From: Nocardia fluminea
Lineage (GTDB): Bacteria > Actinomycetota > Actinomycetes > Mycobacteriales > Mycobacteriaceae
Length of the DNA: 64,000 nucleotides
Assembly: GCF_002846365.1 (NCBI RefSeq)
Contig: NZ_PJMW01000001.1
Location: forward strand, 248,001-312,000
Reading direction: 5' to 3'
Under the pieces are notes generated by a model, which ran no database searches, was not told the origin of the DNA, and saw nothing but the letters and a program-made list of their open reading frames with translations. Below are positions 17,560-39,182 of this stretch, piece after piece. Made by a program: the position numbers and the translations under genes. How positions within the stretch are numbered: position 1 is the first letter of the stretch; the number at the start of each line of letters is the position of its first letter.

Positions 17560-19059
17560 TCAGTACGCGCCGTCGCCGCGCGTGACCGCCCCGACGGTGC
17601 GCGCGATCAACGCCAGATCCAGCACCATCGACCAGTTCTCGACATAGGACAGGTCGAGGCGCACCGAATCCTCCGGCGACAGATCCGACCGCCCGCTCAC
17701 CTGCCACAGCCCGGTGACACCCGGCTTGACCAGCAGCCGCCGTCGCATCTCCCCGTCGTAGCTGTCGACCTCACGCTGCACCTGCGGCCGTGGACCGACG
17801 ACACTCATATCACCGCGCAGCACGTTGAAGAACTGGGGCAGCTCGTCGAGGCTGTACTTGCGCAGGAACCGGCCCACGGCGGTCACCCGCGGATCGTCTT
17901 TGACTTTGAAGAACAACGGATTTCCACCGTGGCGCTCGATCAGCGCCTCCACCGCGCTGTCGGCGTCGACGAGCATGCTGCGGAACTTGATCATCCGGAA
18001 CGGAATCCCGTCGCGCCCGATGCGCTCCGACAGATAGAACACCGGCCCCGCGCTCGTCATCTTCACGGCGATCGCGATGGCGGCCAGCATCGGCGCGATG
18101 AGCACCAGCACCGCCATCGCGAAACACAGGTCGAACAACGCTTTACGGCTCGACTTCGCTCGCCCGTAGCGTGGTGGGTCGATGTGCAGCATCGGCATCC
18201 CCGCGACGAGCCGGTTGGTCAGGCGCGCCACCGCGATGTCGGCGACGCCGGGCGCCACGATCAGGTCGACGCCGAGGGGGTCCAAGGCCCATGCCATCCG
18301 CCGCAATTCGGCGGGTCCGAGGTGATCGGTCGCGGCCACGGCCACCGAATCGGCGCCGCTGCGGCGCACCGCCTCCAGCACCGAGCGATCGTCGCCGAGT
18401 ACCGACGGCCCGTCGGAGGCATCGAACTGTGCGCCGACCGAGCCCGCGGGCACGCAGACACCGACCACGCGATAGCCGGAGCCGGGATCGCCGGTGAACG
18501 CCGACGCCATCGCCTGCGCCGCTTCCGGTGACCCCACGACCAGCACAGAGATATGGCAACGCCCCTGTGCGCGCCACCGCCGCAACCGCCATCGCCACGC
18601 CAGCCGGCCTACGACCAGCGCTAACAGCCCGGCGGGCAACGCGATGGCGAGATAGCCCCGCGCGACCTCCACCCGCAACAGCAGCGCGAGGATCGCGAGC
18701 ACACCGAACAGCCGCAGAGTCGCCGACACCAGCCTGCGGAACTCCTCGGTCCCGGTGCCGACCACCTGCGGGCTGCGGCTGCCGTACCCGTGCAACAGCG
18801 CCAGCCACCCGGCGGCCAAGGCCAGCGACACCACCGAGTAGCCGACCTCGTAGGGCAGCGGCCAGGCCAGCGGCGGCGCGGCGGGGCCACCGAAGCGGAT
18901 GATCTGTGCCGCCGCGACCGCACCGAACACCGCGATCACATCGGTCACCGCCAGCCGCTGCACCAACGCGGTCTGCCAACTCTCGCGCTGCGTACGGCGC
19001 AGCACCTCCACACCGTTGACAACATCGAGGTCGCCACTGCCGGTGAGCTCGTAGCTCAT
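17560..19059 (-). CDS. Priming sugar-phosphate transferase for polysaccharide synthesis (polyprenyl glycosylphosphotransferase)
   Basis: 499-residue enzyme of the WbaP/CpsE type. It moves a sugar phosphate from a nucleotide sugar to the polyprenyl phosphate carrier and so starts repeat-unit assembly. Several N-terminal membrane helices (about 30-150) precede a Rossmann-like CoA-binding-type region. A further helix (about 305-330) is followed by the cytosolic transferase domain with MIKFRSM, DDPRVTAVGRFLRKYSLDEL, PQFFNVLRGDMSVVGPRP and KPGVTGLWQVSGRS. The ATG at 19059 follows a GGGGAGGG site. The gene diverges from the sugar-modification operon at 19547 and is the logical first enzyme for the whole locus. 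Confidence 0.95.
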   Translation of the reverse strand: MSYELTGSGDLDVVNGVEVLRRTQRESWQTALVQRLAVTDVIAVFGAVAAAQIIRFGGPAAPPLAWPLPYEVGYSVVSLALAAGWLALLHGYGSRSPQVVGTGTEEFRRLVSATLRLFGVLAILALLLRVEVARGYLAIALPAGLLALVVGRLAWRWRLRRWRAQGRCHISVLVVGSPEAAQAMASAFTGDPGSGYRVVGVCVPAGSVGAQFDASDGPSVLGDDRSVLEAVRRSGADSVAVAATDHLGPAELRRMAWALDPLGVDLIVAPGVADIAVARLTNRLVAGMPMLHIDPPRYGRAKSSRKALFDLCFAMAVLVLIAPMLAAIAIAVKMTSAGPVFYLSERIGRDGIPFRMIKFRSMLVDADSAVEALIERHGGNPLFFKVKDDPRVTAVGRFLRKYSLDELPQFFNVLRGDMSVVGPRPQVQREVDSYDGEMRRRLLVKPGVTGLWQVSGRSDLSPEDSVRLDLSYVENWSMVLDLALIARTVGAVTRGDGAY

Positions 19060-19546
19060 GAACCCACACCCTCCCCTTCGGGAGACGAATCGTTTTCCGA
19101 TCCCCGTCGACCGGAACACGGTCTCTGCGACCGTCCTGCTTCCCGTCGATTCGATACCCGCCCGCTGATTGTTACAGACCACCAGCAGGGGTTCTTTCCG
19201 AAGATTCACCGCCACAAGGGATTCCAATAGTTAGCCGCCTCACAGCGCAATCCGACAGCTATCACCGAGCCGTAATTGCCTTTCGATATGAATGCAGGAC
19301 AATCACTTTCGCAAGTGAGTGGCATCACAGACAAAGGAGGAGCGGTCGCCCTCGCCGACAGTTAGCCAGTGCGGATTCGACCTGGTTCGACGCCGAAAAA
19401 TACCATGAATCTATTTATGCTCCGGACCTTCGAAAAGCCTCATCGCGCTCACCGCTGTAACGTCTGGGTTCGCTGCTCCGACTTCCGCCATGACCGGCAC
19501 GAGCCGCGACAGCTCGGGTGAACAGGGATGAAGGTGGGGACTCCAC
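19060..19546. promoter_or_regulatory. Divergent promoter region of the polysaccharide locus
   Basis: This AT-richer 487-base gap separates the priming transferase (-) from the methyltransferase operon (+) and must hold both promoters. A perfect inverted repeat TCACTT-TCGC-AAGTGA lies at 19303-19318 near its middle and is a possible regulator site. No regulator gene is adjacent, and no convincing small gene or RNA was found. Confidence 0.5.
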
Positions 19547-20803
19547 GTGCAATGTCGACTCTGTGATTCCGGGCGGCTCACGAGCGTGCTCGACCTCGGC
19601 GCCACCCCACCGTGCGAGAGCTTTCTCTCCGCCGCCGAACTCGACCTGCCCGAAGCGACATATCCGCTGCACCTGCGATTGTGCGAGGACTGTCTGCTGT
19701 TGCAGATCCCGGCGCTGATCACTCCCGAGGACACCTTCACCGAGTACGCGTACTTCTCTTCCTTCTCCGACAGCTGGGTCCGGCACGCCGAACACTTCGT
19801 GACCACCACCGCCGAACGACTCGGCCTCGGCGGCGATTCGTTCATCGTCGAGGTGGCCAGCAACGACGGCTACCTGTTGCGTCATGCGGTCGCGCGTGGC
19901 ATCCCATGCCTCGGCATCGAGCCCTCGGTCAACGTCGGGCGCGCGGCCCGCGAGGCCGGCGTCCCGACGGAAACGGCGTTCCTGGAACAGGATTCGGCCG
20001 CACGGATCCGCGCCGAGCACGGGCCCGCCGACCTGGTGGTCGCCAACAACGTCTACGCCCACGTGCCCGACCTGCGCGGGTTCACCCACGCGCTGCGCAC
20101 CCTGCTCAGCGACGACGGCTGGTGCAGCATCGAAGTGCACCACGCGCTGAACCTGGTCCAGCTGGGCCAATTCGACACCATCTATCACGAACACTTCCAG
20201 TACTACACCGTCCATTCGGCCCAGCGCGCGCTGGCGATCGCCGGGCTGACCGTCGTCGACGTGGAACTGCTCGACACCCACGGCGGCTCGATCCGGCTGT
20301 GGGCACGCCCCGACGCGGTAGCCGAACCCAGCGCCCGCGTCGGCGAGATCCTCGACCTCGAGCGCGCGGCGGGCCTGCACGAGCCCGCCGGTTACGCCGC
20401 GCTGGGTGCCCGCGCCGAATCGGTGCGCCAGGAATTGCTGCGTTTCCTGCTCGACTGCCGCGCGGCGGGCAAACGGGTGGTCGGCTACGGCGCGCCGGGC
20501 AAGGGCAACACGCTGCTCAACTACTGCGGCATCCGGCCCGACCTGCTCGAATACACCGTGGACCGTAACCCCTACAAGCACGGCCGCTACACGCCCGGCA
20601 CCCGGATTCCGATCCATCCGCCCGAGCGCATCGACGCCGACGAGCCCGATGTGGTGCTGGTCCTGCCGTGGAATCTGGAAACCGAGATCACCGCCCAGCT
20701 CAGCCACGTCGGCGAGTGGGGCGGCGAACTGATCTACCCGCTGCCGGTGCTGCATCGCGCCACGGCAGGCGAACCGGTCGCGGCCGGCGCACTCTCCGAA
20801 TGA
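19547..20803 (+). CDS. SAM-dependent sugar C-methyltransferase with N-terminal zinc domain
   Basis: 418-residue three-part protein as in NDP-sugar C-methyltransferases. The N-terminal zinc-binding fold uses C3, C6, C46 and C49. The central SAM domain has VEVASNDGYLL (about 99-109) and GIEPS. A C-terminal Rossmann-like methyltransferase domain contains VGYGAPGKGNTLLNYCGI. GTG start with AAGGTGGGGA upstream. It begins an operon in which each gene overlaps or touches the next. The family methylates C3 of keto-deoxysugars, so the likely substrate is a nucleotide-bound sugar; the exact position is not readable from sequence. Confidence 0.88.
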   Translation: MQCRLCDSGRLTSVLDLGATPPCESFLSAAELDLPEATYPLHLRLCEDCLLLQIPALITPEDTFTEYAYFSSFSDSWVRHAEHFVTTTAERLGLGGDSFIVEVASNDGYLLRHAVARGIPCLGIEPSVNVGRAAREAGVPTETAFLEQDSAARIRAEHGPADLVVANNVYAHVPDLRGFTHALRTLLSDDGWCSIEVHHALNLVQLGQFDTIYHEHFQYYTVHSAQRALAIAGLTVVDVELLDTHGGSIRLWARPDAVAEPSARVGEILDLERAAGLHEPAGYAALGARAESVRQELLRFLLDCRAAGKRVVGYGAPGKGNTLLNYCGIRPDLLEYTVDRNPYKHGRYTPGTRIPIHPPERIDADEPDVVLVLPWNLETEITAQLSHVGEWGGELIYPLPVLHRATAGEPVAAGALSE

Positions 20804-20817
20804 AGGTGAACGAACCG

Positions 20818-21594
20818 ATGAAGGTCGTCCTGTTCTGCGGCGGATACGGCATGCGCATGCGCGGCGGATCCGACGACATCGTCCCCAAGCCGATGCAGCT
20901 GGTCGGTCCGCGCCCGCTGCTGTGGCACGTGATGCGCTACTACGCGCACTACGGGCACAAGGAGTTCGTGCTGTGCCTGGGTTACGGCGCCGAGCACATC
21001 AAGAACTTCTTCCTCACCTACCAGGAGTCCGCGTCCAACGACTTCGTGATCCGCAACGGCGCGGTGGAACTGCTGGGCAGCGACATCAGCGACTGGTCGA
21101 TCACCTTCGTCGACACCGGGGTCGAATCCGCGATCGGGGAGCGACTGCGCCGCGTGCGTGAGCACCTCGACGGAGACGAGCACTTCCTGGCCAACTACGC
21201 CGACGTGCTCACCGACGCGCCGCTGGACACCATGATCGAACGCTTCCACGCCTCGGGTGCGGCCGCGTCGATGATGGTGGTGCCGCCGCAGTCCTCGTTC
21301 CACTGCGTGGACATCTCGCCCACCGGTGAGGTGAAGGACATCGTGCCGGTGGCGCAGATGCCGCTGTGGGAGAACGGCGGATACTTCGTGCTCAGCCAGG
21401 AGATCTTCGATCTGCTGCCGCCCGGCGGCGATCTGGTGGCCGACGCGTGCGGCGCGCTCGCCGGGCAGGGCCGGCTCTTCGGATATCAGCACATGGGCTT
21501 CTGGAAACCGGCCGACACCTTCAAGGAACGCGCCGAACTCGACGACGCCTACCGCAACGGCACCCGGCCGTGGATGGTGTGGGACCGAGGGTGA
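20818..21594 (+). CDS. Glucose-1-phosphate cytidylyltransferase-like nucleotidyltransferase
   Basis: 258-residue sugar-nucleotide transferase closest to RfbF-type cytidylyltransferases: MKVVLFCGGYGMRM, PKPMQLVG and LLWHVMRYYAHYGHKEFVLC. The usual GxGTR loop reads GYGMRM. Activation of a sugar 1-phosphate with CTP or another NTP would supply the donor for the neighbouring modifying enzymes. The ATG at 20818 has AAGGTGA 8 bases upstream. An in-frame ATG at 20800 would instead overlap the methyltransferase stop as ATGA and adds six residues. No CDP-glucose 4,6-dehydratase (rfbG) follows, so the classical CDP-deoxysugar route is incomplete here. Confidence 0.82.
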   Translation: MKVVLFCGGYGMRMRGGSDDIVPKPMQLVGPRPLLWHVMRYYAHYGHKEFVLCLGYGAEHIKNFFLTYQESASNDFVIRNGAVELLGSDISDWSITFVDTGVESAIGERLRRVREHLDGDEHFLANYADVLTDAPLDTMIERFHASGAAASMMVVPPQSSFHCVDISPTGEVKDIVPVAQMPLWENGGYFVLSQEIFDLLPPGGDLVADACGALAGQGRLFGYQHMGFWKPADTFKERAELDDAYRNGTRPWMVWDRG

Positions 21595-22241
21595 TCGGGC
21601 TGTTCACCACCCCACCGCGGCGGATCGCGGTGCTCGGCGCGCACTGCGACGACATCGCGATCGGGATGGGGGCAACGCTTCTCGCGCTCACCGGCGCCGA
21701 TCCCGAGGTCGAGGTGCGAGCCCTTGTCCTCTCCGGCGGCGGCACCGCCCGCGAGGAGGAGGAGCGCGCGGCGCTCACCGCGTTCTGCTCGGGTAACAAG
21801 CCGGACTTGCACGTGCTCGATGTGCCGGACGGCCGCGCGCCCGCGCACTGGGATCGGATCAAGGACGCACTGGCGGACTTCCGTCGTGGCGGTGAACCCG
21901 AGGTGGTGTTCGCGCCGCATCGTGGCGACGCCCACCAGGACCACCGCCTGCTCGCCGAGTTGGTGCCCACCGAGTTCCGTGACCACCTGACCTTGGGTTA
22001 CGAAATCCTCAAGTGGGAGACCGACGCCCCGGCTACCACCCTCTACCACCCACTGAGTCATGCACTCGTGCAACAGAAGTCGCGTCTGCTGCACGAACAC
22101 TATCCGTCGCAGACGGGCCGCGACTGGTTCGACGAACAGGCCTTCCTCGGGCTGGCCCGGATGCGTGGCGTGCAGTGCCACGCGCCGTATGCCGAGGCGT
22201 TCGTGCTCGACAAAGCGATCATCAGATGGGAACAGACGTGA
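21591..22241 (+). CDS. PIG-L/LmbE-family deacetylase
   Basis: 216-residue zinc-dependent deacetylase of the LmbE/MshB fold. The motif AHCDD at 17-21 stands for the usual AHPDDE, and PHRGDAHQDHR supplies further metal and catalytic residues. Family members remove N-acetyl groups from amino sugars such as GlcNAc conjugates. The GTG start overlaps the cytidylyltransferase stop by 4 bases. Its place in the operon suggests deacetylation of a nucleotide-linked or assembled N-acetyl sugar, possibly linked to the GNAT and aminotransferase genes further down the locus. Confidence 0.88.
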   Translation: MIGLFTTPPRRIAVLGAHCDDIAIGMGATLLALTGADPEVEVRALVLSGGGTAREEEERAALTAFCSGNKPDLHVLDVPDGRAPAHWDRIKDALADFRRGGEPEVVFAPHRGDAHQDHRLLAELVPTEFRDHLTLGYEILKWETDAPATTLYHPLSHALVQQKSRLLHEHYPSQTGRDWFDEQAFLGLARMRGVQCHAPYAEAFVLDKAIIRWEQT

Positions 22242-23278
22242 ACATGCGGGTACTGGTCACCGGGCACCAGGGCTATCTCGGCACCGTGATGGTGCCGGTG
22301 CTGCGGGCGGCGGGGCACCAGGTCACCGGCCTGGACGTCGGTTACTTCGCCGACTGCGTGCTCGGCGAATTCGCCGGTGACCCCGAGGGTTCGGCGGTGG
22401 ACCTGCGTGAGGTGACCGTCGAGCAGTTGCGTGGTTTCGACGCGGTGATCCACCTCGCGGCGTTGTCGAACGACCCGCTCGGCGCCTTGGCGCCACAGAT
22501 CACCTACGACATCAACCACCATGCGTCGGTGCGTCTGGCTCGCCTCGCCAAAGAGGCCGGGGTGTCGCGGTTCCTGTACGCCTCGACCTGCTCGGTCTAC
22601 GGCGCCGCCGGTGCCGACCTCGTCACCGAGGACGCCCCGCTGCGCCCGATCACCCCGTACGCCGAGAGCAAGGTCCGCGTCGAAGACGATGTGGCCGCGC
22701 TGGCCGACGACGACTTCGTTCCGGTATTCCTGCGCAACGCGACAGCTTTCGGGTTCTCCCCCCGTTTGCGCGCCGATATCGTGCTCAACAATCTCGTCGG
22801 TTACGCGGTGCTCACCGGCGAGGTGAAGGTGCTCTCCGACGGCACCCCGTGGCGACCCCTGGTGCACGCGGCCGACATCGCCGCCGCGTTCGCCACCTGC
22901 CTCACCGCGCCCGCCGCCGACATCTCGTGCCGGGCGTTCAATATCGGCACCGAGGTCAACAACCTGACCGTCGCCGAGATCGCGGCCTCGGTGGTCGACG
23001 CGGTGCCCGGCTCACGGCTGCTGATCACCGGTGAGAACGGCGCCGACCCACGGTCCTACCGGGTCGACTTCTCCGCCGCGCGTGAAGTTCTCGGCTTCGA
23101 GGCGCAGTGGACGGTCCCCGCGGGCGCGGCCGAGCTGTTCACCGAGTACACCGCGCGCGGACTCACCTCCGAGGCGTTCTTCCGCCGCTTCACCCGGCTG
23201 CCGCACCTGCAGGGCCTGTGCGACTCGGGCGTGCTCGACGCACAGCTGCGCCGGATCAGTGCGTCGGCGTCAGCGTAG
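22238..23278 (+). CDS. NAD-dependent sugar epimerase/dehydratase (extended SDR)
   Basis: 346-residue extended short-chain dehydrogenase. The NAD loop GHQGYLG is at 9-15 and the catalytic pair is Y141/K145 in YAESK, with serine in LYASTCSVYG. The GTG start overlaps the PIG-L stop (GTGA); an ATG at 22244 is the alternative. It acts on a nucleotide sugar, as an epimerase, dehydratase or reductase. The 3' end overlaps the convergent RmlC-like gene by 23 bases. Confidence 0.88.
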   Translation: MNMRVLVTGHQGYLGTVMVPVLRAAGHQVTGLDVGYFADCVLGEFAGDPEGSAVDLREVTVEQLRGFDAVIHLAALSNDPLGALAPQITYDINHHASVRLARLAKEAGVSRFLYASTCSVYGAAGADLVTEDAPLRPITPYAESKVRVEDDVAALADDDFVPVFLRNATAFGFSPRLRADIVLNNLVGYAVLTGEVKVLSDGTPWRPLVHAADIAAAFATCLTAPAADISCRAFNIGTEVNNLTVAEIAASVVDAVPGSRLLITGENGADPRSYRVDFSAAREVLGFEAQWTVPAGAAELFTEYTARGLTSEAFFRRFTRLPHLQGLCDSGVLDAQLRRISASASA

Positions 23279-23819
23279 CCAGCAGCGCGGCCCAGCTCCC
23301 GGCCCGCGCGTCACGCGCGGAGACCGGGCCGACCGGCAGCGGCCATCCGATGGCCAGTTCGGGGTCGTCATAGGCGACCCCGAGGTCCTCGGCGGGATCG
23401 TGCGGACGGTCGATGCGGTAGCAGACGTCGGCGATCTCGGTGAGTGCCTGGAATCCGTGCAGGAAACCCGGCGGCACGTAGAGGTGGTGGAACTGCTCGT
23501 CGTCGAGCCGAAATGCTTGGCGCGCACCGAAAGTCGGCGACTCCGGGCGGATGTCGACGAGCACGTCGTGGACGGCACCGTGGGCGCAGCGCACCAGTTT
23601 GGCCTCGCCGCGCCCACCCCGACCGTGCATGCCACGGATCACCCCGCGCACCGACCGCGACTGCGAATCCTGCACGAAGCTCGCCGCGGCGCCCGCTACG
23701 CCGAGATGGGCGTCGAACTCGCTCGCGTCGAAAGTGCGGGTGAACAACCCCCGCTCGTCCCGGAACGGTTCGGGCACGAGGACCACCACGTCGGCCAATT
23801 CGGTCCGCTCGATACGCAC
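23256..23819 (-). CDS. dTDP-4-dehydrorhamnose 3,5-epimerase-like protein
   Basis: 187-residue RmlC-type cupin: FRDERGLFTRTFDASEF, SQSRSVRGVIRGMH, KLVRCAHGAVHDVLVDIR and LYVPPGFLHGFQAL. The catalytic His-Asp elements of RmlC appear to be in place (RGMH and the DVLVDIR strand). It would epimerise C3 and/or C5 of a 4-keto sugar nucleotide. The GTG at 23819 gives a family-like N-terminus (VRIERTELADVVV); a GTG at 23840 would overlap the divergent methyltransferase start. It is encoded on the opposite strand inside the sugar operon, so it needs its own promoter within neighbouring coding sequence. Confidence 0.85.
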   Translation of the reverse strand: MRIERTELADVVVLVPEPFRDERGLFTRTFDASEFDAHLGVAGAAASFVQDSQSRSVRGVIRGMHGRGGRGEAKLVRCAHGAVHDVLVDIRPESPTFGARQAFRLDDEQFHHLYVPPGFLHGFQALTEIADVCYRIDRPHDPAEDLGVAYDDPELAIGWPLPVGPVSARDARAGSWAALLATLTPTH

Positions 23820-23833
23820 CAGGACATCTTCGC

Positions 23834-24922
23834 ATGACACGCCGATGCCGCGGGTGCGCGCACACCGCGCTCACAACCCTTCTCGATCTCGGGCCGGTCC
23901 CCGCGGCGGATCACTTTCCGCCACGTGACGCTCCGGTCGCCGCCACCGAATCCGGGCACCCTTTGCGGATGGACCGGTGCGCGGCCTGCGGCCTGGCCCA
24001 GCTGGCCGACGACGACACCGTCACCGCGGAGCCCCGTGGTGTCGAGCCACTGGCCCTGCGCGACCAGGCCGCCGAGGCGGTGCGGCGGGTGCACGGAGCC
24101 GGGCTGCTGCGCGGATCGACGGTCACCGAATTCGGTAGCCCACACGGCGGCACCTGGTTGCCCCTGCTCGCTGAGCACGGCTTCACCGAGAGCACCGGCG
24201 GGCCGGCCGATGTGGTGCTCGATTGCTTCGGGATCATGCACGAACCCGATCAGCGCGCGGCCTTCGCGGCACGTGCCGCGGCGACCGCTCCCGACGGGGT
24301 GCTGCTGGTGCAATACCACTCGCTGGCGGCCATCGTCGCGCAGGGACAGTGGAACGCGCTGCGGCACGGGCACTTCGCGTACTACTCGCTGTCGACTCTG
24401 CGTACGCTGCTGCGGGCGGCGGGGATGAGCGTGGTCACCGCGTGGGAGTTCGACCTCTACGGCGGCACGGTGCTGCTGGCAGCGCGCCACGGCGACCACA
24501 CCCCCGACGCCACGACAGACAGCGTTCTCGTCGCCGAGGCCGAGGCGCTGAGCTCGGCCGCCGAGTTGCAGCACACGGTCGACCGTCACGTCCGCGCCCT
24601 GCGCCGTTGGCTCGATGCCGGGGCCGCACACGGCCATCGGGTCTATGCCTACGGTGCCGCGTCCCGGGCGGTGGCCCTGCTGAGCATGGCGGGCGCGCAC
24701 CGCGGCCTGCTCGCCGGGGTCGCCGACGCCTCGCCGGGAAAGCAGGGTCGCCGGATGCCCGGCACCGATGTACCGATCATCTCCCCCACCGACCTGCTCG
24801 CCGCCGAACCCGACGTCGTGCTGCTGACACTGCCGGATCTGCTCGCCGAAGTGCGCGCCGCCCTGCCCGAACTCGAGGGCCGGTGGATGATCGACGACCC
24901 GGCGGGCCCACGGGCACGATAG
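23834..24922 (+). CDS. Degenerate C-methyltransferase-like protein
   Basis: 362-residue relative of the protein at 19547. The N-terminal zinc cysteines are kept (C5, C8, C49, C52), and the C-terminal domain is recognisable (VYAYGAASRAVALLSMAG, TDVPIISPTDLL). The SAM region is shortened and altered: motif I reads VTEFGSPHGGTW and the segment that normally ends in GIEPS is missing. It may bind SAM poorly or not at all, or act on a different substrate. ATG start; its 5' end lies 14 bases from the RmlC-like start on the other strand. Confidence 0.78.
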   Translation: MTRRCRGCAHTALTTLLDLGPVPAADHFPPRDAPVAATESGHPLRMDRCAACGLAQLADDDTVTAEPRGVEPLALRDQAAEAVRRVHGAGLLRGSTVTEFGSPHGGTWLPLLAEHGFTESTGGPADVVLDCFGIMHEPDQRAAFAARAAATAPDGVLLVQYHSLAAIVAQGQWNALRHGHFAYYSLSTLRTLLRAAGMSVVTAWEFDLYGGTVLLAARHGDHTPDATTDSVLVAEAEALSSAAELQHTVDRHVRALRRWLDAGAAHGHRVYAYGAASRAVALLSMAGAHRGLLAGVADASPGKQGRRMPGTDVPIISPTDLLAAEPDVVLLTLPDLLAEVRAALPELEGRWMIDDPAGPRAR

Positions 24923-25133
24923 GCGAGAGCTGAGACTGTGGCATAACCGACCACCTGTCGATCGGCGCATCACCGGCGGGCGTGGGATACTCGGAATGCC
25001 CAGCGCCGCATCATGATCGAGTTCAGGTCACTGCTGGACCGTCGCAGTGTCGCGGTGGCCGGCGCCCGGATCGCCAGGGGGAACGCGGCGCCGAACGCAG
25101 CGTTCGACGGGCGAGTAGCCAGGGGAAGAATTC

Positions 25134-25769: not shown

Positions 25770-25791
25770 TCCACGTCGCCACGGCGGGCGT

Positions 25792-26646: not shown

Positions 26647-26808
26647 CGGGGTAGCCCTGTTGCGCCCCCGCCTACCCCCGCGACGAATCTACCCCACCTC
26701 CGTCGCTGTCTTCCCGCCCGGTGGGCCCGGATCTCGCTACTCCCCTAGACTGTGGGCTGATAGCGAATTCGCCGGTCGGGACGCACTTCGCGGGACACAT
26801 GATGAAGG

Positions 26809-31439: not shown

Positions 31440-32782
31440 ACGGTTCTGCCACCGTCGCCGGCGTCGCCGCCGCGCTGCTCGTCATCGCGGTCGCCGCGCT
31501 CTGGGTGCCCGGCGTCGCCCGGGTGTTCCTCATCGCGCAGGCCGTGTTCTGGTCGCTGTCGTATGTGGCGCGACCGCTGGTGCTGCTCGCGGTGCGGCCC
31601 GAACCGCACTTCGGCGACAATGTGCCCGATCCGCGGCTGGCCGAGCTGGGCTACGACCGTGGGATCGCGCTGGCGTTGCAGCATGTGGTGTTCGGGCTGT
31701 GGGTGTACGCGGCCCTGGTTGTCGCCTACGCGATCTGGGCGCACCGCAGGCCGCTGCGCCGCGCCGCCGCCCTCGACGACCCGGATTTCGTGCCCGCGCT
31801 GGTCGCGCTGTACGTACTCGGCATGCTCGGCCGGGCAGCCGGGACGGCGTCCGGGTCGGCGGGCACCGCGGGCGAGGTCGACAGCGCCAACCCGATGCTG
31901 GCGTTCCTCGCTGTCCCGGCATCGATCGCCGCGATCGGCCTGATCATCTTTTTGCGCCCACCCGACCCGCGCCGCACCGCCGTCGTCCTCGGCGCTCTGC
32001 TCGTGGGTGAGCTGTGGTGGTCGTCGGTGGTGCAGTCCAAGACTCCGATTCTGGGTGCCGCGCTGGCACTGGCCATCCGGTTCTCGATGATCGGCTGGAA
32101 CCGGCGCACCGCGCTCGGTGTCGCGGGCATCGGTGTGCTCGGCGTGGTCGGGTTCGGCTGGTTGCAGTCGTTCAAGTCCACCGGCACCGCGGCACGCGAC
32201 GCGGCGTCGGTCGATGCGATCTACCCCGAGAACGTCCAGCCGTTCTTGAGCATCCTGCGCCGGTTCGATCTGCTCGAAGCCGCGACCGATGCCTTGTTCT
32301 ACGGTCCCGGCGGTTGGCTGACGCCGAGCGAGGTGGCCCAGCACGCGAGCCTGAGCCTCATCCCGGCGCCGCTGCTCGGGCTCGAGAAGTTCCAGTCCGG
32401 CACGGCGTGGGCCGACGAGGTGCGCGGCGCGTCGGTGGACATGAGCACCGTGACGGTGTCCCTCGCCGAGGGAAACTTCAACGAGGGCTATGTGCTCGGC
32501 GGATACCCCGGCGTTGTCGTGTGCGCGGTGTTCACCTTCGCGCTGCTGCTGGCCTGGTCGTATTCGCTGTATTCGCGGTGGTTCCCGGTGGTCGTGCTCG
32601 GTCTGGCGATCACCGGGGCCTCGACACTGTTCGAGCGCGGGATTCTCGGCAGCATGGAGAATCTCGGCAAGTTCGTACAGACCGCCGTGCTGGCGTGGCT
32701 GGTGTATCTGGTCGTCGAGGAGTTCCGGCGCACCGAATCATGTGTGGTAACAGGGGAAATGGAGTCCCAGCGATGGGTTTGA
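31436..32782 (+). CDS. O-antigen polymerase-like (Wzy) membrane protein, apparent CTG start
   Basis: About 448 residues with ten or more hydrophobic segments and one large loop in the second half (about 275-345), the general layout of Wzy polymerases, which join repeat units outside the membrane. There is no ATG, GTG or TTG at a suitable place. The frame opens at CTG 31436, which overlaps the upstream stop as CTGA and has a perfect AGGAGG at 31423-31428, 7 bases before it. The next usable start, GTG 31505, would remove most of the first helix. Family assignment rests on topology and context, since Wzy proteins share little sequence. Confidence 0.78.
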   Translation: MNGSATVAGVAAALLVIAVAALWVPGVARVFLIAQAVFWSLSYVARPLVLLAVRPEPHFGDNVPDPRLAELGYDRGIALALQHVVFGLWVYAALVVAYAIWAHRRPLRRAAALDDPDFVPALVALYVLGMLGRAAGTASGSAGTAGEVDSANPMLAFLAVPASIAAIGLIIFLRPPDPRRTAVVLGALLVGELWWSSVVQSKTPILGAALALAIRFSMIGWNRRTALGVAGIGVLGVVGFGWLQSFKSTGTAARDAASVDAIYPENVQPFLSILRRFDLLEAATDALFYGPGGWLTPSEVAQHASLSLIPAPLLGLEKFQSGTAWADEVRGASVDMSTVTVSLAEGNFNEGYVLGGYPGVVVCAVFTFALLLAWSYSLYSRWFPVVVLGLAITGASTLFERGILGSMENLGKFVQTAVLAWLVYLVVEEFRRTESCVVTGEMESQRWV

Positions 32783-34053
32783 TCGATATCTGGCGCATCG
32801 TACGACAGCGATGGCTGTTGATCGTGGGAGTCGTGCTGGTGTGCACGGCGGCCGCGTGGGCTTACGCGCAAACGCTGCCGAACATCTATTCGGCGTCGAG
32901 TTCGATGTATGTGTCGATGGCCACGGGCACCTCGGTCAACGACTCGTACCAGGGCGGTCTGGCCGCCCAACAGCGGGTGCGGTCCTATCTCGACCTGGCG
33001 GCCTCGACGACAGTCGCGGCACGCGTTGTCGACGACAAGGGTCTGAAGATCACACCGGAGCAGATGCGCGCGAAGATCACTGCCAGTTCACCCCCCGCGA
33101 CCTCGGTGATCATGATCACGGTGCAGGATTCGACCCCGACCGGCGCGCGCGATCTCACCGACGCCGCGGTAGCCCAGTTCCGCAGACTCGTCGACGAACT
33201 CGAGTCCATCCAGCGTGACGCGGCCCCGGCCGCGCGGGTGGCCGTGGTCGACCGGGCGCAGGTACCGAGCGCCCCGCTCGGCCCGCCGCCGGGCCGGATC
33301 GTGCTGCTGGGTCTGATCGCCGGGCTCGCCCTCGGAGGCGGCGCGGCACTGCTGCGCGAGCGCACCGACCGTTCGCTGCGTACCCCGGACGCCGTGTCGG
33401 CGGCGCTGCCCGTCCCGGTGCTCGGGGTGATCGAAGCGGGCACACCCGCCGCCGCGGGTGAGACGCGGCGGTTGCGCAGCCGGTTGCTCCAGCACGACCC
33501 CGCGAAGTCGGTGCAGCTGACGAGTCTGTCGGCGCGCTCGGAACCGGATGTGGCGATGGCACTGGCCCGTTCGCTGTCCGACAGTGGACAGCACGTGGTG
33601 CTCGTCGACGCCGACACCAGCGGCGGCGGCAGCACCGAATTCATCACCAGCGACAGCCCCGGCCTGGCGGCGGTGCTGCGCGCCACCCTGCCCGTCGCCA
33701 AGGCGCTCACGCCGTGGTCGGAGACCGGAATCGCGTTCCTGCCGCTCGGCGCCGCCGATCAGCAGACCCCCGACCTGCTCGTGTCGGCGCGATTCGCCGA
33801 TCTGATCACCGACCTGGCCTCGCGCTTCGATCACGTCATCGTCGAGACCGCACCGGTCACCGTCGCCGCGGACGCGATCGGGGTGGCACCGCTGTGCGAT
33901 GTCACGCTCGGCATCGTCGAACTGGGCGCGCTGTCCGGACCCGGATTGCGCGGCGCGCTGGCGACGCTCGGCGCCGCGAAACTCACCGGAGCGGTGGTGT
34001 ACAGCAGACCTTCGGCTCCTCTGGCCCGTTTCCTGGAACGGCTGCCACTGTGA
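32773..34053 (+). CDS. Wzz/BY-kinase-like chain-length protein lacking the P-loop
   Basis: 426-residue protein. Two membrane helices (about 15-33 and 176-195) frame a periplasmic Wzz-like domain, with the proline-rich VPSAPLGPPPGRIVLLGLIA before helix 2. The cytosolic half has the layout of a tyrosine autokinase with VVLVDADTSGGGS as Walker A', but the Walker A site reads SLSARSEPDVA instead of a GxGKT loop. No tyrosine cluster is present at the C-terminus. It probably sets chain length structurally, without ATP hydrolysis or autophosphorylation. It overlaps the polymerase gene by 10 bases. Confidence 0.85.
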   Translation: MGLIDIWRIVRQRWLLIVGVVLVCTAAAWAYAQTLPNIYSASSSMYVSMATGTSVNDSYQGGLAAQQRVRSYLDLAASTTVAARVVDDKGLKITPEQMRAKITASSPPATSVIMITVQDSTPTGARDLTDAAVAQFRRLVDELESIQRDAAPAARVAVVDRAQVPSAPLGPPPGRIVLLGLIAGLALGGGAALLRERTDRSLRTPDAVSAALPVPVLGVIEAGTPAAAGETRRLRSRLLQHDPAKSVQLTSLSARSEPDVAMALARSLSDSGQHVVLVDADTSGGGSTEFITSDSPGLAAVLRATLPVAKALTPWSETGIAFLPLGAADQQTPDLLVSARFADLITDLASRFDHVIVETAPVTVAADAIGVAPLCDVTLGIVELGALSGPGLRGALATLGAAKLTGAVVYSRPSAPLARFLERLPL

Positions 34054-35408
34054 ACGAACAATCGGTGGGGCGGCGGCGTCTGCTCGCCGCCACCTTCGGC
34101 GCGGCGGCCGTGCTGCCCTTGGCCGCGGCCTGCGCCGCCGACCCGGAGCCCGGTGCCGAGTTCCGCTCACCCCACGTCAGTGATTCGCCCGCTGCCCGCA
34201 ACGTGCGCGATTTCGGTGCCGTCGGCGACGGCAAGGCCGACGACACGGCGGCCGTCGCCGCGGCCGCGGCGGCCAGGGACCGGCCGGTGGTGCTGTACTT
34301 TCCCGCGGGCACCTACCGGGTGCGGTCGTGGCCCGACATGCCGGACTTCGCCACGGTTCTCGGCGACGGCGGGGACTCCAGTGTGGTGTTCTGTGAGGAC
34401 GACGTCACGCTGATCCGCTTGGAGAAGCGCAGCCGGGTGCGCTTCTCCCGCATCGGTTTCTATCTCACCGGTCCGCGCGCCACCGGTTTCGTCCTGTCGG
34501 AGTGCTTCCGCTGTTCCTTCGACGGTGTCGTGATCCGGGGAAATCACCTCAGCGACAATCACCCTCGTTTCCTCGCCCAGCGCGGTGTCGTGCTGGACCG
34601 CAATACCGGCGGCACCGCGTTCATCAACTGCGACATCAACAATTTCGGCGTCGGCCTCGAAACGCAGTGCATCCAGAACTACGTCACCTCGTCGAAGTTC
34701 ACCAGCAATTACGTCGGCGTGCTCGGTACCGGCAACGACCACAACGCCGGCTTGGCGCTGACCAACGTGGAATTCGTCTCCGATCGCGATCCGCGAACCA
34801 CCGACCGCCACCTCCTGGTCGACGGCGCGGCGAATGACTGGTGGCTCACCAATATCTGGTTCGAGGGCGCCGATATCGCGGTGTCGGTCGGGACCCGGGG
34901 CAAAGGCGGGCCCGCCCAGTTCGGCATGGTCAATTGCAAGGTGGCTGCCCGCTCGGTCGGGGTCGACCTCGTGTACTGCAGACAGCCGTATCTGGCGAAC
35001 GTGGTCTTCGACCAGGAATCCGACCGTCCCGGCGTCGAATTGCGCATCGACCCCACCGACTGCGCGGAAGGCACCGCGATCAATCTGATCTCCGGTTCCG
35101 CCGACGATCTGCGCGCGGGCGTCTTTCCCGACGGGTGGCAGGTGATCGGGCGCAGCGGAATGCGCACGTCGCGCTTCACCGGCACGGTGATCACCCGGGC
35201 CGGGCAAGGCGACGCCGACCTGTTCCAGGCGCAGGGCAACGACGGCGCTGTCCGCTCGGCGGTGTTGTCCAGCGGCGCGTGGTTATCCGATCACGCCGAC
35301 GCCGGACTGGTACTGAAGGACCCCGCCGGCGGCTACTGGCGGCTGGCCGTCGGTACCGACGGCGCGTTACGGACCGTGGCCATGGGCAAACAACGGCCAC
35401 GGCAATGA
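34050..35408 (+). CDS. Secreted beta-helix (pectate-lyase-superfamily) lipoprotein
   Basis: 452-residue protein. The start RRRLLAATFG is Tat-like and LAAACAADP is a lipobox with the cysteine at about residue 28, so it should be an exported lipoprotein. NVRDFGAVGDGKADDTAAV is the hallmark opening of the pectate-lyase-3 / right-handed parallel beta-helix superfamily and is followed by repeated helix rungs. Such proteins bind, cut or epimerise polysaccharides. Inside this operon the likely substrate is the exported polymer itself, for trimming, release or editing. GTG start overlapping the Wzz-like stop. Confidence 0.85.
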   Translation: MNEQSVGRRRLLAATFGAAAVLPLAAACAADPEPGAEFRSPHVSDSPAARNVRDFGAVGDGKADDTAAVAAAAAARDRPVVLYFPAGTYRVRSWPDMPDFATVLGDGGDSSVVFCEDDVTLIRLEKRSRVRFSRIGFYLTGPRATGFVLSECFRCSFDGVVIRGNHLSDNHPRFLAQRGVVLDRNTGGTAFINCDINNFGVGLETQCIQNYVTSSKFTSNYVGVLGTGNDHNAGLALTNVEFVSDRDPRTTDRHLLVDGAANDWWLTNIWFEGADIAVSVGTRGKGGPAQFGMVNCKVAARSVGVDLVYCRQPYLANVVFDQESDRPGVELRIDPTDCAEGTAINLISGSADDLRAGVFPDGWQVIGRSGMRTSRFTGTVITRAGQGDADLFQAQGNDGAVRSAVLSSGAWLSDHADAGLVLKDPAGGYWRLAVGTDGALRTVAMGKQRPRQ

Positions 35409-36736
35409 GCTCGTCGTATGCCACTGTGACGCTGGGACCCGTCCGCCTGCACGGTGTCACCGTGCGGCTGCGACCGCCGGCGTTCGGTGATTTCGCCGAG
35501 TGGCGGCGGATTCGCCTGCGTGATCGGGATTGTCTCGAACCGTACTGGTTTCGATCCCCGTTGACCTGGGACCAGCGGCACACTCCGAGCCGCTGGGTAG
35601 GTGAATGTCTGGCTGCCCGCGCCGAAGCCAGGGCCGGACGGCGGGTGAGCACGGTCCTCGAGATCGATGGCAGGTTCGCCGGGCAGCTCGAGCTGGTCGG
35701 TGTCGGCTCCGGCACCGCCGAACTCAGCGTCTGGGTCGACGCCGAGGTCGCCCGACGCGGAGCGAGCGGGCTCGCCGGGTCGCTGCTGCTCGACTTCGGG
35801 TTCGGCACCGTCGGCCTGGAGCGGATCACCGCGCCGATCGCCGTGACGAACGCCGGTGCGCGGCGCGCGGTCCGGCAGCGCTGGACGCTGGAGGCGGTCA
35901 TGGCCGGGTACTTCGACGTCGGAGGTGGGCGCGTCGACCACGAACTGTGGTCGGTGACCAGCGATCGGATACCCGCGGGCGGGTTCGCCGCCGATTGGCT
36001 GGCGGGCTATCTCGCGACTCATCCCACCGCCGACAGCCTTCCCGGCGACACGACCTCCTCGACCGGCGCCACGGTGTCGGCCTGCACGATTCTGCGAGCC
36101 CGCGCACGCCATCGCCTCGGCAGGGTGCGGCACATGGCCGACCCGTTGCGCACCGCGACGCCCGGCACGGCGCACAGCGGTTCGATAGAGTTACGTCCTT
36201 GGCGCAGTGGCGATTTCAAATCTCGCCGCGCCGCACGCATCGCCGCCGGCCCACTGCTCGCACCGACTGCGCTGCCCGAGGACTGGGCTCGGCGGCACAC
36301 GCGCCGGGAGTGGTGGCGGTCGAGGGCGGCGTCTCGGATGGGGCTGCGCGGTAAGCACGGCGCGGTCCTCGTCATCGAGGAAGCAGGCCGCTACCTCGGC
36401 GAATGCCGCCTCTTCGATCGGGACATGTTCGACCGCAATGTCCGTGCGGCCGTGTGGGTTCGCCCGGACGCGCCCACCGAGACCGCGGTCGACGCACTAC
36501 GCCTGCTGATCACCCACGCTACCGAGCGTCTCGGTATCTGGCGGGTGTCGCTGGCCGTGCCGTCCGCCGACCGGAGGGGTGCGGCCCTCGCCCTCGACGC
36601 CGGCCTGCGCCACGAAGGCACCATGCACCACTACCGCGGTATCGACGGCGCACTCGCCGATCACGAGCTGTGGGCTTTCAGCACCGCGCGCACCACCGCG
36701 ACGTGCGCGTCCGGCGGCGAAGGAGAACACCCATGA
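35405..36736 (+). CDS. Tandem GNAT acetyltransferase
   Basis: 443-residue protein with two GNAT (RimJ-like) halves, at about 10-200 and 262-435, joined by a basic linker. The first half keeps an acetyl-CoA loop (ARRGASGLAG) and the family ending VDHELWSV. The second ends ADHELWAF but its acetyl-CoA loop is replaced by PDAPTETAVDALR, so only the first may be catalytic. It likely acetylates an amino sugar on a nucleotide or lipid carrier. The ATG overlaps the upstream stop and the gene's stop overlaps the aminotransferase start. Confidence 0.82.
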   Translation: MSSSYATVTLGPVRLHGVTVRLRPPAFGDFAEWRRIRLRDRDCLEPYWFRSPLTWDQRHTPSRWVGECLAARAEARAGRRVSTVLEIDGRFAGQLELVGVGSGTAELSVWVDAEVARRGASGLAGSLLLDFGFGTVGLERITAPIAVTNAGARRAVRQRWTLEAVMAGYFDVGGGRVDHELWSVTSDRIPAGGFAADWLAGYLATHPTADSLPGDTTSSTGATVSACTILRARARHRLGRVRHMADPLRTATPGTAHSGSIELRPWRSGDFKSRRAARIAAGPLLAPTALPEDWARRHTRREWWRSRAASRMGLRGKHGAVLVIEEAGRYLGECRLFDRDMFDRNVRAAVWVRPDAPTETAVDALRLLITHATERLGIWRVSLAVPSADRRGAALALDAGLRHEGTMHHYRGIDGALADHELWAFSTARTTATCASGGEGEHP

Positions 36737-38073
36737 CAGCCCATCGCGGATTCGCTCGCAGCAACGAGCTGCAAGCGCGCCTGCACGACCTCGTGCCCGG
36801 GGGCGCGCACACCTACGCCCGCGGCGCCGACCAGTATCCCGAGTCGATGGCGCCGATCCTGCTGCGCGGCAAGGGTGCTCACGTCTGGGATGCCGACGGC
36901 AATCGCTACGTCGAGTACGGGATGGGCCTGCGCGCGGTGACGCTCGGGCACGGCTACGGCCCCGTTCTCACCGCGGTATCGGAAGCCGTCGCCGACGGTG
37001 TCAGCTTCAGCAGACCCACCGAACTGGAATTGCTCGCCGCACAAGACTTCCTGTCGCTGGTGCCCGGCGCCGACATGGTGAAGTTCGCCAAGAACGGCTC
37101 CGACGCCACCACTGCCGCGGTCCGCCTGGCCAGAGCGGTGACCGGCCGCAGCGCCATCGCTGTCTGCGATCAGCCGTTCTTCTCCGTCGACGACTGGTTC
37201 ATCGGCACCACCGAGATGGCGGGCGGCATCCCCGCCGTCGACACCGTGAAGTTCCCGTACAACGACCTCGACTCCCTCGACGCGACACTCGCGGACGGCT
37301 CCGTGGCCGCGGTGTTCCTGGAGGCCGCGACCGCCATGGCCGAACCACTGCCCGGATACCTGGACGGTGTTCGCGCACTGTGTGATCGGTACGGCACCCT
37401 GCTGGTGTTCGACGAGATGATCACCGGTTTTCGCTGGTCGGCGGGCGGCGCCCAGGCGGTCTACGGCGTGACACCGGACCTGTCGTGCTGGGGCAAGGCG
37501 ATGGGCAACGGCTTCCCGATCTCCGCGCTCGCGGGCAAGCGCGAGTACATGGAGCGGGGCGGGCTGCGCACCGATCAGGAGCGGGTATTCCTGCTCTCGA
37601 CGACGCACGGCCCGGAAACGTCCGCGCTGGCGGCGTTGCGGGCGGTGGTCCACGCCTACCGCACCGAAGACCCCGTCGGGCGGATGGAACAGGCGGGCCG
37701 CGTGCTCGCCGACGGCGTGAACACGATCGCCGCCGACCTCGGCATCGCCGATTTCCTGCAGGTACTCGGTAGGCCGTCCTGCCTGATCTTCCGCACCTCG
37801 GACGCCGAAGGCGCACCCTCGCAAGCCTTTCGAACGCTGTTTCTGCAAGAGCTCCTGATGCGCGGCGTGCTCGGCCAGTCGTTCGTCACCTCCGCCGCCC
37901 ACGACCCGGACGCCATCGCCACCACGGTCGCCGCGTGTGCCGAGGCAGCCGAGGTCTATCGCCGCGCGATCGAGCGCGGCACCGTCGACGGACTGCTGCG
38001 CGGCCGTCCCGTCGCTCCCGCACTGCGTCGCACCGCGGCGCCCCGACAGATCGAAGCGAGCACCCCGCGATGA
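36733..38073 (+). CDS. Class III PLP aminotransferase (glutamate-1-semialdehyde aminomutase-like)
   Basis: 446-residue PLP enzyme of the HemL-like branch. Seen are GGAHTYARG, KNGSDATTAAVRLAR, FDEMITGFRW and the PLP lysine K255 in CWGKAMGNGFP. True HemL is unlikely in a glycan operon. Placement next to acetyltransferases and glycosyltransferases suggests amination of a keto-sugar or of a small decoration. AGGAGA lies 6 bases before the ATG, which overlaps the GNAT stop. Residues after 420 form a non-conserved tail. Confidence 0.85.
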   Translation: MTAHRGFARSNELQARLHDLVPGGAHTYARGADQYPESMAPILLRGKGAHVWDADGNRYVEYGMGLRAVTLGHGYGPVLTAVSEAVADGVSFSRPTELELLAAQDFLSLVPGADMVKFAKNGSDATTAAVRLARAVTGRSAIAVCDQPFFSVDDWFIGTTEMAGGIPAVDTVKFPYNDLDSLDATLADGSVAAVFLEAATAMAEPLPGYLDGVRALCDRYGTLLVFDEMITGFRWSAGGAQAVYGVTPDLSCWGKAMGNGFPISALAGKREYMERGGLRTDQERVFLLSTTHGPETSALAALRAVVHAYRTEDPVGRMEQAGRVLADGVNTIAADLGIADFLQVLGRPSCLIFRTSDAEGAPSQAFRTLFLQELLMRGVLGQSFVTSAAHDPDAIATTVAACAEAAEVYRRAIERGTVDGLLRGRPVAPALRRTAAPRQIEASTPR

Positions 38074-39182
38074 CCCGTGTCGCCATCGTCCACGAACGTT
38101 TCACCGAGTTCGGCGGCTCCGAGGCCGTCGTCGGCGAGTTCGTCGAAACCTGGCCCGACGCCGAGGTTTTCGCACCGATCGTCGCCCCGGGTGGCCTGCG
38201 AGAACCGGTGCGTACCGTGCACGACACCTGGCTGAGCACCGCGCACACCTACACCGGCGGCAGGCACGCTCCGCTGCTTCCGCTGGTTCCTCGCGCGCTG
38301 CGCCGAATGCCGTTGCGCGACTTCGATGTCGTCGTGATCAGCCATCACGCCTTCGCCACCCAGGCCGCCCTGGCCACCGACGCGCCTGTCGTCGCCTACG
38401 TGCACTCCCCCGCCCGGTGGGCCTGGGATCGCGAGTTCCGCGCACAGGAGGCCGGCGGCCGGGTGGGCCAACTGGCGCTCGGCGCGCTGGGCGCGCTGGC
38501 TCGACGTGGCGAGCTGCGCGCCGCGCCGCGACTGACGCACGTGATCGCCAACTCGCATGCCGTCGCCGAGCGGGTCACCGAGTGGTGGGGGCTGCCGGCC
38601 ACGGTCGTCAGCCCGCCCGTGCAGGTCGGCCACTTCACTCCCGACCCGGCGGTGGAGCGCGAGGACTTCTTCCTCTGCGCGGGCAGGCTCGTGCCGTACA
38701 AGCGCGCCGACCTCGCCATCCGCGCCGCACAGCGGGCCGGGGTTCGCCTGGTGGTCCTCGGCGAAGGCCGGTTCCGCGCGCAGCTCGACGAGATCGCCGG
38801 CGCGGAGACGACCTTCCTCGGCGCTACCTCCGGCGAGCTGCTGCAGGACATGTACCGGCGCTGCCGCGCACTGCTCATGCCCGGCATCGAGGACTTCGGG
38901 ATCGTCCCGGTGGAGGCGATGGCCTGCGGCACGCCGGTGCTCGCGGTCGGCGCCGGCGGCGCCCTCGACACGGTGCGCCCGGGCGTCACCGGCGAATACG
39001 TACCGGCCGGAACCGATGCGGACGTGGTCGCGGCGCTGGCCGACCTGATGCGCGAATTCCGCTCGGCGTCCTACGATCCCGCCAAGATCCGCGAGCACGC
39101 AGGCACCTTCGCCCCCGAGGTGTTCCGCTCCAGGATTGCGGGCACTGTCGACGAGGTCCTGGCGGGGCGTACGCCGCGATAG
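38070..39182 (+). CDS. Glycosyltransferase family 4
   Basis: 370-residue GT-B enzyme: MTRVAIVHERFTEFGGSEAV, YVHSPARWAWD, CAGRLVPYKRADLAIRAA and GIEDFGIVPVEAMACG. These resemble mannosyltransferases of the WbaZ/MtfB kind, but the sugar is not certain. Last gene of the overlapping operon; the ATG overlaps the aminotransferase stop. The 273 bases after it (39183-39455) are AT-richer and lead to a new transcription unit. Confidence 0.9.
   Translation: MTRVAIVHERFTEFGGSEAVVGEFVETWPDAEVFAPIVAPGGLREPVRTVHDTWLSTAHTYTGGRHAPLLPLVPRALRRMPLRDFDVVVISHHAFATQAALATDAPVVAYVHSPARWAWDREFRAQEAGGRVGQLALGALGALARRGELRAAPRLTHVIANSHAVAERVTEWWGLPATVVSPPVQVGHFTPDPAVEREDFFLCAGRLVPYKRADLAIRAAQRAGVRLVVLGEGRFRAQLDEIAGAETTFLGATSGELLQDMYRRCRALLMPGIEDFGIVPVEAMACGTPVLAVGAGGALDTVRPGVTGEYVPAGTDADVVAALADLMREFRSASYDPAKIREHAGTFAPEVFRSRIAGTVDEVLAGRTPR

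Follow-up and report, generated by a model that had tools for sequence, protein, structure and literature searches.

The window, a stretch of 64,000 nucleotides of the Nocardia fluminea genome, harbors at positions 17560-39182 the genes compiled in Table 1. Every gene type that the initial annotation had listed for a polysaccharide locus is present here, and only for Wzy does the identity derive from gene context and a weak fold likeness. The polyprenyl-phosphate priming transferase, the Wzx-type flippase and the Wzz/PCP co-polymerase of a Wzx/Wzy pathway were recognized by profiles above cut-off (TIGR03025, PF01943 and PF02706, the latter with a cut-off of 25.5 bits). Alternative starts of the priming transferase gene reach as far as position 19227, and the Wzy-like reading frame begins with a CTG at 31436, the first in-frame GTG being located at 31505.

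Table 1. Genes of the polysaccharide locus, with their positions in the window and the evidence for each assignment.
Gene product	Position	Strand	Evidence
Priming polyprenyl-phosphate sugar-phosphate transferase	17560..19059	-	Bac_transf PF02397 222.6 bits, CoA_binding_3; TIGR03025 406.7 bits, over cut-off
Sugar C-methyltransferase 1 (3-C-methyltransferase type)	19547..20803	+	PF08484/PF08421; PDB 4rv9 (D-mycarose 3-C-methyltransferase) E 3.2e-80
Sugar-1-phosphate nucleotidyltransferase, closest to glucose-1-phosphate cytidylyltransferase	20800..21594	+	TIGR02623 183.9 bits, under cut-off 300.25
PIG-L type deacetylase	21591..22241	+	PF02585 54.1 bits
NAD-dependent sugar epimerase/dehydratase	22226..23278	+	PF01370 141.2 bits
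RmlC-type 3,5-epimerase	23256..23840	-	PF00908 178.8 bits; TIGR01221 157.3 bits, over cut-off
Sugar C-methyltransferase 2	23834..24922	+	PF08484 82.2 bits
MspA-family porin, N-terminal signal-like sequence	25134..25769	+	PF09203 93.2 bits (curated cut-off 22.9); PDB 1uun E 8.9e-40; model matches 1uun and rim domain 2v9u; site conserved
GT2 glycosyltransferase	25792..26646	-	PF00535 73.2 bits
GT4 glycosyltransferase	26809..27912	+	PF13692 108.9 bits
GT4 glycosyltransferase	27909..29045	+	PF00534 116.7 bits; ATG start at 27909
Wzx-type flippase, start uncertain	29035..30426	+	PF01943 85.6 bits
CgeB-like glycosyltransferase	30423..31439	+	PF13524 84 bits
Wzy-like polytopic polymerase candidate	31436..32782	+	Context; orthologs in Nocardia genomes; weak FtsW/WaaL fold likeness
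Wzz-type co-polymerase fused to BY-kinase-like domain without recognizable Walker A	32773..34053	+	PF02706 34.9 bits, GNVR; Wzc PDB matches, residues 260-379
Exported right-handed beta-helix protein, twin-arginine and lipobox motifs	34050..35408	+	PF12708 68.8 bits; weak PDB likeness including mannuronan C5-epimerases
Tandem GNAT acetyltransferase	35405..36736	+	PF13302, 2 stretches
Class-III aminotransferase, glutamate-1-semialdehyde aminomutase-like	36733..38073	+	PF00202 125.3 bits; NF004856 660 bits, over cut-off
GT4 glycosyltransferase	38070..39182	+	PF00534 87.1 bits

The polymerase candidate yielded no family match in profile searches, and its model gave no PDB match by Foldseek; VIA-align indicated a weak likeness to FtsW and WaaL. 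Its designation as Wzy is thus context-based. Orthologs are present in 78 of 150 Nocardia genomes, the genome studied here included, and orthologs of the nucleotidyltransferase in 98. The initial annotation had named scattering of the genes in relatives as the sequence-based one of two observations that would speak against the locus. The genes are co-conserved and their order is largely kept in Nocardia; consequently, this objection does not refute the assignment. As judged from the enzyme set and its co-conservation, there is good support for assigning these genes of a mycolate actinomycete, a Nocardia, to a Wzx/Wzy-type surface-polysaccharide locus. The earlier description needs correction in one respect, the apparent lack of any exit for the polymer: an MspA-family porin gene within the locus, conserved with it in many Nocardia, had been overlooked.

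The AlphaFold2 model of the porin (mean pLDDT 82.3) adopts the MspA fold, with 1uun_A as the best Foldseek match followed by 2v9u_A, and direct reading of the translation reveals a hydrophobic N-terminus ending in AAA-E. The score against the mycobacterial MspA equivalog model NF053716 is 168.3 bits, below the cut-off of 280. Moreover, the locus porins form one group, separate from seven Nocardia MspAs encoded elsewhere, and the same genome contains eight other MspA-family matches. From the alignment, a shorter constriction loop was suspected to reflect an export pore of greater width; this idea was dropped, as the feature is not locus-specific: the stretch from TP to GPG comprises 29-32 residues in locus porins versus 36 in MspA of Mycobacterium smegmatis, 31 in six of the seven Nocardia MspAs encoded outside the locus (the pattern did not fit the remaining one), and 21 to 42 in other genera, where 19 of 22 sequences fitted. 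In line with the initial annotation, a Wza-type (OPX) exporter was not detected, as the whole genome gave no match to PF02563 (Poly_export); in the control, a match was obtained in 4 of 14 cases. In the absence of a Wza-type gene from the genome, the locus porin is a candidate exit for the polymer.

A porin of the locus type was found in 63 of the 150 Nocardia genomes. All 63 contain the sugar cassette, none of the 52 cassette-less genomes encodes this porin, and it is missing from 35 of the 98 genomes with the cassette. In 58 of the 63 cases the gene lies within 2 kb of that for C-methyltransferase 2, and in all 58 measured loci it is located 90-334 bp downstream on the same strand. Three further porins adjoin RmlC and the priming transferase. 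For the remaining two (genomes G086 and G113) the stretch examined stops at the porin, leaving GT2 as the sole visible neighbor, and the coordinates place the nucleotidyltransferase about 3.4 kb upstream. What the sequences show directly is the set of enzymes, how it is conserved within the genus, and this tight linkage.

The linkage also persists where the locus has been rearranged. The porin is kept with the cassette where the polymerase block has been swapped, in 12 genomes that lack the Wzy ortholog, and in loci L092 and L131-L133, where the cassette is inverted relative to the polymerase block. In L112-L114 it still adjoins the genes for the priming transferase and RmlC, although much of the locus is gone from the site. 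Where GT2 is encoded on the same strand as the polymerase, only 1 of 27 loci contains the porin within the stretch examined, and two clades of such loci (7 and 18 rows) contain none. Some Nocardia possess both locus types in one cell. In close relatives of the window the porin is lost or broken.

Beyond Nocardia, 22 family genomes contain a Wzy ortholog, and an MspA-family gene was found near the polysaccharide genes in 2 of them. One is Segniliparus rugosus, in which a different gene of the MspA family precedes the priming transferase gene of the orthologous locus by 76 bp; in the other, G163, the gene is next to the cassette on a separate contig. In a mycobacteriaceal metagenome-assembled genome, the porin adjoins the same cassette. 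A GNAT gene neighbors MspA in 13 of the 20 stretches from other genera, which represents a different context. Ten Rhodococcus/Rhodococcoides loci with an orthologous Wzy-like protein contained no MspA gene within about 10 kb; the idea that every such locus in mycolates includes MspA was therefore rejected.

These Rhodococcus loci indicate that the polymer is evidently manageable without a locus-encoded pore. They are consistent with an LCP-type transferase, encoded at another site, that would ligate the polymer to the wall below or inside the mycolic layer; no free chain would then have to cross the outer membrane, and the porin would be incidental. The genome yielded five matches to LytR_cpsA_psr (PF03816) above cut-off, all on contig C2, the locus being on C1, and LCP transferases are described as attaching wall glycopolymers in Gram-positives (PMC7831098). 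However, profile searches revealed no LCP gene inside the locus and the conserved position of the porin is left unexplained, rendering this possibility improbable.

On the C-methyltransferase 2 tree, the presence of the porin is clade-stable with at least eight changes, most of which can be read as losses. This pattern would also be expected if the gene had landed once in an ancestral locus by chance and had since been inherited as a passenger. Against this, dN/dS is well below 1 (0.059-0.236) in all 11 pairs, which were chosen by hand, the porin has been kept in the depleted loci L112-L114, and the linkage in Segniliparus involves another MspA subfamily. We consequently regard a chance passenger as quite improbable.

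Alternatively, the porin might serve uptake and not export: a capsule would slow diffusion, and capsulate lineages would keep an extra general porin beside the capsule genes for nutrient permeability. MspA of M. smegmatis and related channels are characterized as cell-wall permeability channels (PMC9233653); furthermore, the porin is missing from many locus-bearing genomes, as would be an accessory, and its central loop is not specialized. However, eight other MspA-family matches are already present in the genome, uptake alone does not predict that the porin follows the cassette through rearrangements and polymerase swaps, and a second MspA subfamily adjoins the priming transferase in Segniliparus. 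On balance, uptake appears somewhat unlikely.

Taken together, we tentatively propose, at a little under an even chance, that this Wzx/Wzy-type locus of Nocardia supplies its own MspA-type outer-membrane pore for the exit of the polymer. The priming transferase would begin the repeat unit on a polyprenyl carrier, and the glycosyltransferases would lengthen it, with a C-methyl-branched deoxysugar probably among its sugars. Wzx would then flip the unit, the Wzy-like protein would polymerize it under the Wzz-like protein, and the exported beta-helix protein may trim or modify the chain. In the least certain step, the chain would leave through the locus-encoded pore, which would take the place of Wza of Gram-negative bacteria, to which it is unrelated. 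If an MspA pore can pass a polysaccharide at all, the eight other MspA-family matches of the genome could serve as well. The 35 of 98 cassette genomes, the Rhodococcus loci and the near relatives without an intact porin argue against a strict role of the porin. It is a more doubtful generalization that octameric MspA-type porins were recruited in mycolic-acid bacteria as dedicated Wzx/Wzy outer-membrane channels, analogs of Wza of unrelated origin, at least twice, once with the locus type of MspA in Nocardia and once with another MspA subfamily in Segniliparus.

To our knowledge, the passage of polysaccharides across the mycolic outer membrane has not been explained. Among the titles and abstract openings listed by searches of openly licensed PMC full texts, none describes a polysaccharide locus that encodes an MspA porin. 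A porin gene that accompanies such loci across a genus renders the question of outer-membrane crossing testable, and natural comparison groups are provided by Nocardia with locus and porin, those with the locus but not the porin, and those in which both locus types coexist in a single cell. If the porin exports the polymer, MspA pores, described as permeability channels (PMC9233653), would gain a second natural role.

In Gram-negative bacteria, the Wzx/Wzy-dependent pathway of group 1 capsules uses Wza, Wzb and Wzc. The Nocardia locus resembles this pathway in its priming transferase, flippase, polymerase candidate and Wzz-type co-polymerase with a kinase-like domain. It differs in that the genome lacks Wza and the locus contains an MspA-family porin instead, and in that, as judged by a crude pattern, no GK[ST] Walker A motif is present in the kinase-like domain of 74 of 80 loci. 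The orthologous loci of Rhodococcus opacus, R. ruber, R. gordoniae and relatives largely share the order GT4, Wzx, CgeB-like, Wzy-like, Wzz and beta-helix, with 53-58% identity in the Wzy-like protein, but differ by the lack of a nearby MspA-family gene noted above. The nocardial hetero-oligomeric channel NfpA/NfpB is assigned to the MspA superfamily (PMC4827864). Against the profile of the locus porins, the remaining MspA-family genes of the genome hardly score (at best 25.6 versus 340.5 bits), and these may be NfpA/B-like. Finally, the locus porin shares a common fold with M. smegmatis MspA (1uun; Foldseek E 4.3e-19, TM 0.76 by target length) and with the rim domain 2v9u (TM 0.95), and is distinguished from M. 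smegmatis MspA by being encoded within a polysaccharide locus.

Within the span of the Wzx/Wzy-type polysaccharide locus of Nocardia fluminea (genome size 8.06 Mb), 19 genes were called. Pfam or NCBIfam searches confirmed every gene type named in the initial annotation except the Wzy-like protein, whose gene is present and matched no Pfam or NCBIfam family. With the chosen starts, each gene between the flippase and the last glycosyltransferase, both included, overlaps its neighbour by 4-10 bases, as would be seen in an operon. The closest solved structure to C-methyltransferase 1 is D-mycarose 3-C-methyltransferase (E 3.2e-80), which suggests that the polymer may carry a branched deoxysugar. 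The BY-kinase-like domain fused to the Wzz-like protein lacks a recognisable Walker A motif, and its kinase activity is doubtful because a crude pattern search found no GK[ST] in this protein in 74 of 80 loci. A gene for a fused fatty-acyl reductase/short-chain dehydrogenase flanks the locus; several other Nocardia stretches have related genes close to the locus.

Features of the polysaccharide locus and of related stretches
Feature	Stretch	Position	Strand	Remark
Wzx/Wzy-type locus	window	17560-39182		
MspA-family porin	window	25134-25769		211 aa; between C-methyltransferase 2 and GT2
GT2 glycosyltransferase	window	25792-26646	-	directly after porin
Wzy-like gene, start	window	31436 (CTG) or 31505 (first GTG)		start unsure
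Wzz-like/BY-kinase-like fusion	window	32773-34053		
Fatty-acyl reductase/short-chain dehydrogenase	window	39405-41468		flanking gene
Fragmented porin to GT2, N. salmonicida	L128	2617-16038		separated by ~13 kb of other genes
GT4, lipoprotein-like protein, different flippase	L187	1616-5418		adjoin the cassette
MspA-family gene, Segniliparus rugosus	L264	72-698		PF09203, 146.1 bits
Priming transferase, S. rugosus	L264	775-2430		same strand, 76 bp after MspA-family gene

The initial annotation had overlooked the porin gene, which begins 211 bp after C-methyltransferase 2. Its product matches PF09203 with 93.2 bits (cut-off 22.9), the closest named protein (95%) is from Nocardia fluminea, and among solved structures M. 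smegmatis MspA is the closest (1uun, E 8.9e-40). The structure predicted by AlphaFold2 (mean pLDDT 82.3, pTM 0.65) likewise gave 1uun as first structural match (rmsd 5.9; TM 0.76, normalised to the target length) and also matched the rim domain of MspA (2v9u; TM 0.95, rmsd 1.0). The genome contains nine MspA-family matches; with a profile of the locus porins only the porin of the window scored strongly (340.5 bits, next 25.6). A Wza-type gene (PF02563) was not found in this genome.

Gene order proved largely conserved within the 80 stretches fetched around the Wzy-like gene. Of 150 Nocardia genomes, 78 have a Wzy-like ortholog, counting the genome of the window and three fragmented matches (G015, G054, G103); the most similar one (96%) is that of N. 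salmonicida (G097). Two architectures were observed. In 43 of the 80 stretches GT2 and the Wzy-like gene are on opposite strands, with the porin within the stretch in 30; in 27 the two genes share a strand, with the porin in one and a GNAT gene in two. GT2 was not seen in the remaining 10. Seven genomes (G029, G030, G031, G032, G080, G127, G143) harbor two complete loci each.

The porin is linked to this locus. Homologs were detected in 68 of the 150 Nocardia genomes (E <= 1e-15), and 40 more stretches were fetched, most of them around porins outside the first set of 80. Five genomes (G021, G055, G061, G073, G102) have an MspA only at sites with none of these locus genes within ~10 kb; in G061 the distance to the locus is about 25 kb, and in G055 there is a weak GT2-like match 3 kb from the MspA. 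In the remaining 63 the porin stands beside locus genes, G093 having a second MspA away from them. It lies less than 2 kb from C-methyltransferase 2 in 58 of these genomes and beside RmlC and the priming transferase in three (G024, G028, G128), where loss has removed much of the locus from its site, while the stretches of G086 and G113 show GT2 only, with the nucleotidyltransferase ~3.4 kb upstream by coordinates. In 58 of 58 measured loci (57 genomes; the broken copy of N. salmonicida included, the window itself left out) the porin gene follows C-methyltransferase 2 on its strand, 90-334 bp downstream. The porin is under selection, with dN/dS of 0.059-0.236 in 11 sister pairs hand-picked from the tree.

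The nucleotidyltransferase of the sugar cassette occurs in 98 of the 150 genomes and in all 63 with a locus-type porin, and none of the 52 genomes without it has such a porin (Fisher p 4e-17, relatedness ignored). Any porin homolog (E <= 1e-15) was found in 2 of these 52 (G055, G102) versus 66 of the 98. As 12 of the 63 genomes lack a Wzy ortholog, a different polymerase block does not separate the porin from the cassette. A near relative without Wzy ortholog (L187) carries the genes listed in the table next to the same cassette, which reads as a swapped polymer block; its lipoprotein-like protein has a glycosyl hydrolase 10 match below threshold, and L189 and L190 resemble it by eye. The three genomes in which much of the locus is lost from the porin's site (stretches L112, L113, L114) retain there RmlC, the priming transferase and a porin frame free of interruptions, L112 additionally the nucleotidyltransferase, beta-helix and GNAT genes, and have a second-type locus with Wzx/Wzy genes elsewhere (L080, L073, L076).

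A quick maximum-likelihood tree, calculated from 92 MspA sequences without bootstrap, unites 61 locus porins and the porin of a mycobacteriaceal MAG in a single group (SH-aLRT 90), to which seven non-locus Nocardia MspAs, 22 from other genera and MspA itself do not belong. Locus-type porins are absent from 35 of the 98 cassette genomes. Porin presence requires at least 8 changes on a quick C-methyltransferase 2 tree (104 rows, 102 of known state), and thus the porin is stable within clades and was probably lost several times. The porin of N. salmonicida is fragmented, G035 retains a remnant after C-methyltransferase 2 (residues 114-189, E 1.5e-10), and G095 only a 16-residue match (E 0.004). 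No remnant was detected in G006 and G073 at E <= 1, and a clade of nine relatives (L018-L025, L096) is without porin.

Outside Nocardia (12 of 76 loci in the named scan), the gene order GT4, GT4, Wzx, CgeB-like, Wzy, Wzz, beta-helix is for the most part kept in the 10 Rhodococcus and Rhodococcoides loci; none of these has an MspA-family gene within ~10 kb on either side (two profiles, E <= 1e-4). In Segniliparus rugosus, with 7 MspA-family matches listed, some partial, such a gene precedes the priming transferase of the orthologous locus. It scores 24.8 bits with the locus-porin profile versus 82.9 with that of the other MspA-family genes of the N. fluminea genome, and belongs to another MspA subfamily. 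In the MAG (G163) the porin sits at the opposite end of the same cassette. Of the 22 non-Nocardia genomes that have a Wzy ortholog, the remaining 20 have their MspA-family genes on separate contigs or, by coordinates, at distances above 60 kb; in drafts, contig breaks could hide linkage. In L167-L186, stretches of other genera, the MspAs most like the locus porin have other surroundings, and 13 of the 20 show a GNAT-like match 5-9 kb downstream.

The sequences establish which enzymes are encoded, the linkage of the porin and the selection on it. From family knowledge, the encoded enzymes would prime, flip and polymerise the chain and control its length. We further infer that the chain may leave through the MspA-type pore; this export role is the most interesting reading and directly testable. 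Nanopore studies have passed single-stranded DNA through engineered MspA pores, and a linear glycan would therefore fit an MspA-type pore by size. The porin losses and the porin-less Rhodococcus loci stand against a strict export role; other porins may replace the locus porin where it is absent. Ligation of the polymer to the cell wall is a possible rival to export through the pore, because five LCP-family genes lie elsewhere in the genome.

An MspA porin in a polysaccharide locus was not described in the titles and abstract openings of the literature searched. A passage on the Rhodococcus equi genome mentions a horizontally acquired region with genes potentially for extracellular polysaccharide (PMC2947987). 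The N. farcinica channel subunits are called only distant relatives of MspA in part of a paper whose reference list includes a mutant-MspA study (PMC9233653), and an excerpt of another places MspA and NfpA/B in one superfamily (PMC4827864). Taken together, the locus is real, belongs to the Wzx/Wzy kind and is widely conserved in Nocardia; the MspA-family porin encoded within it sets it apart as a new variant.
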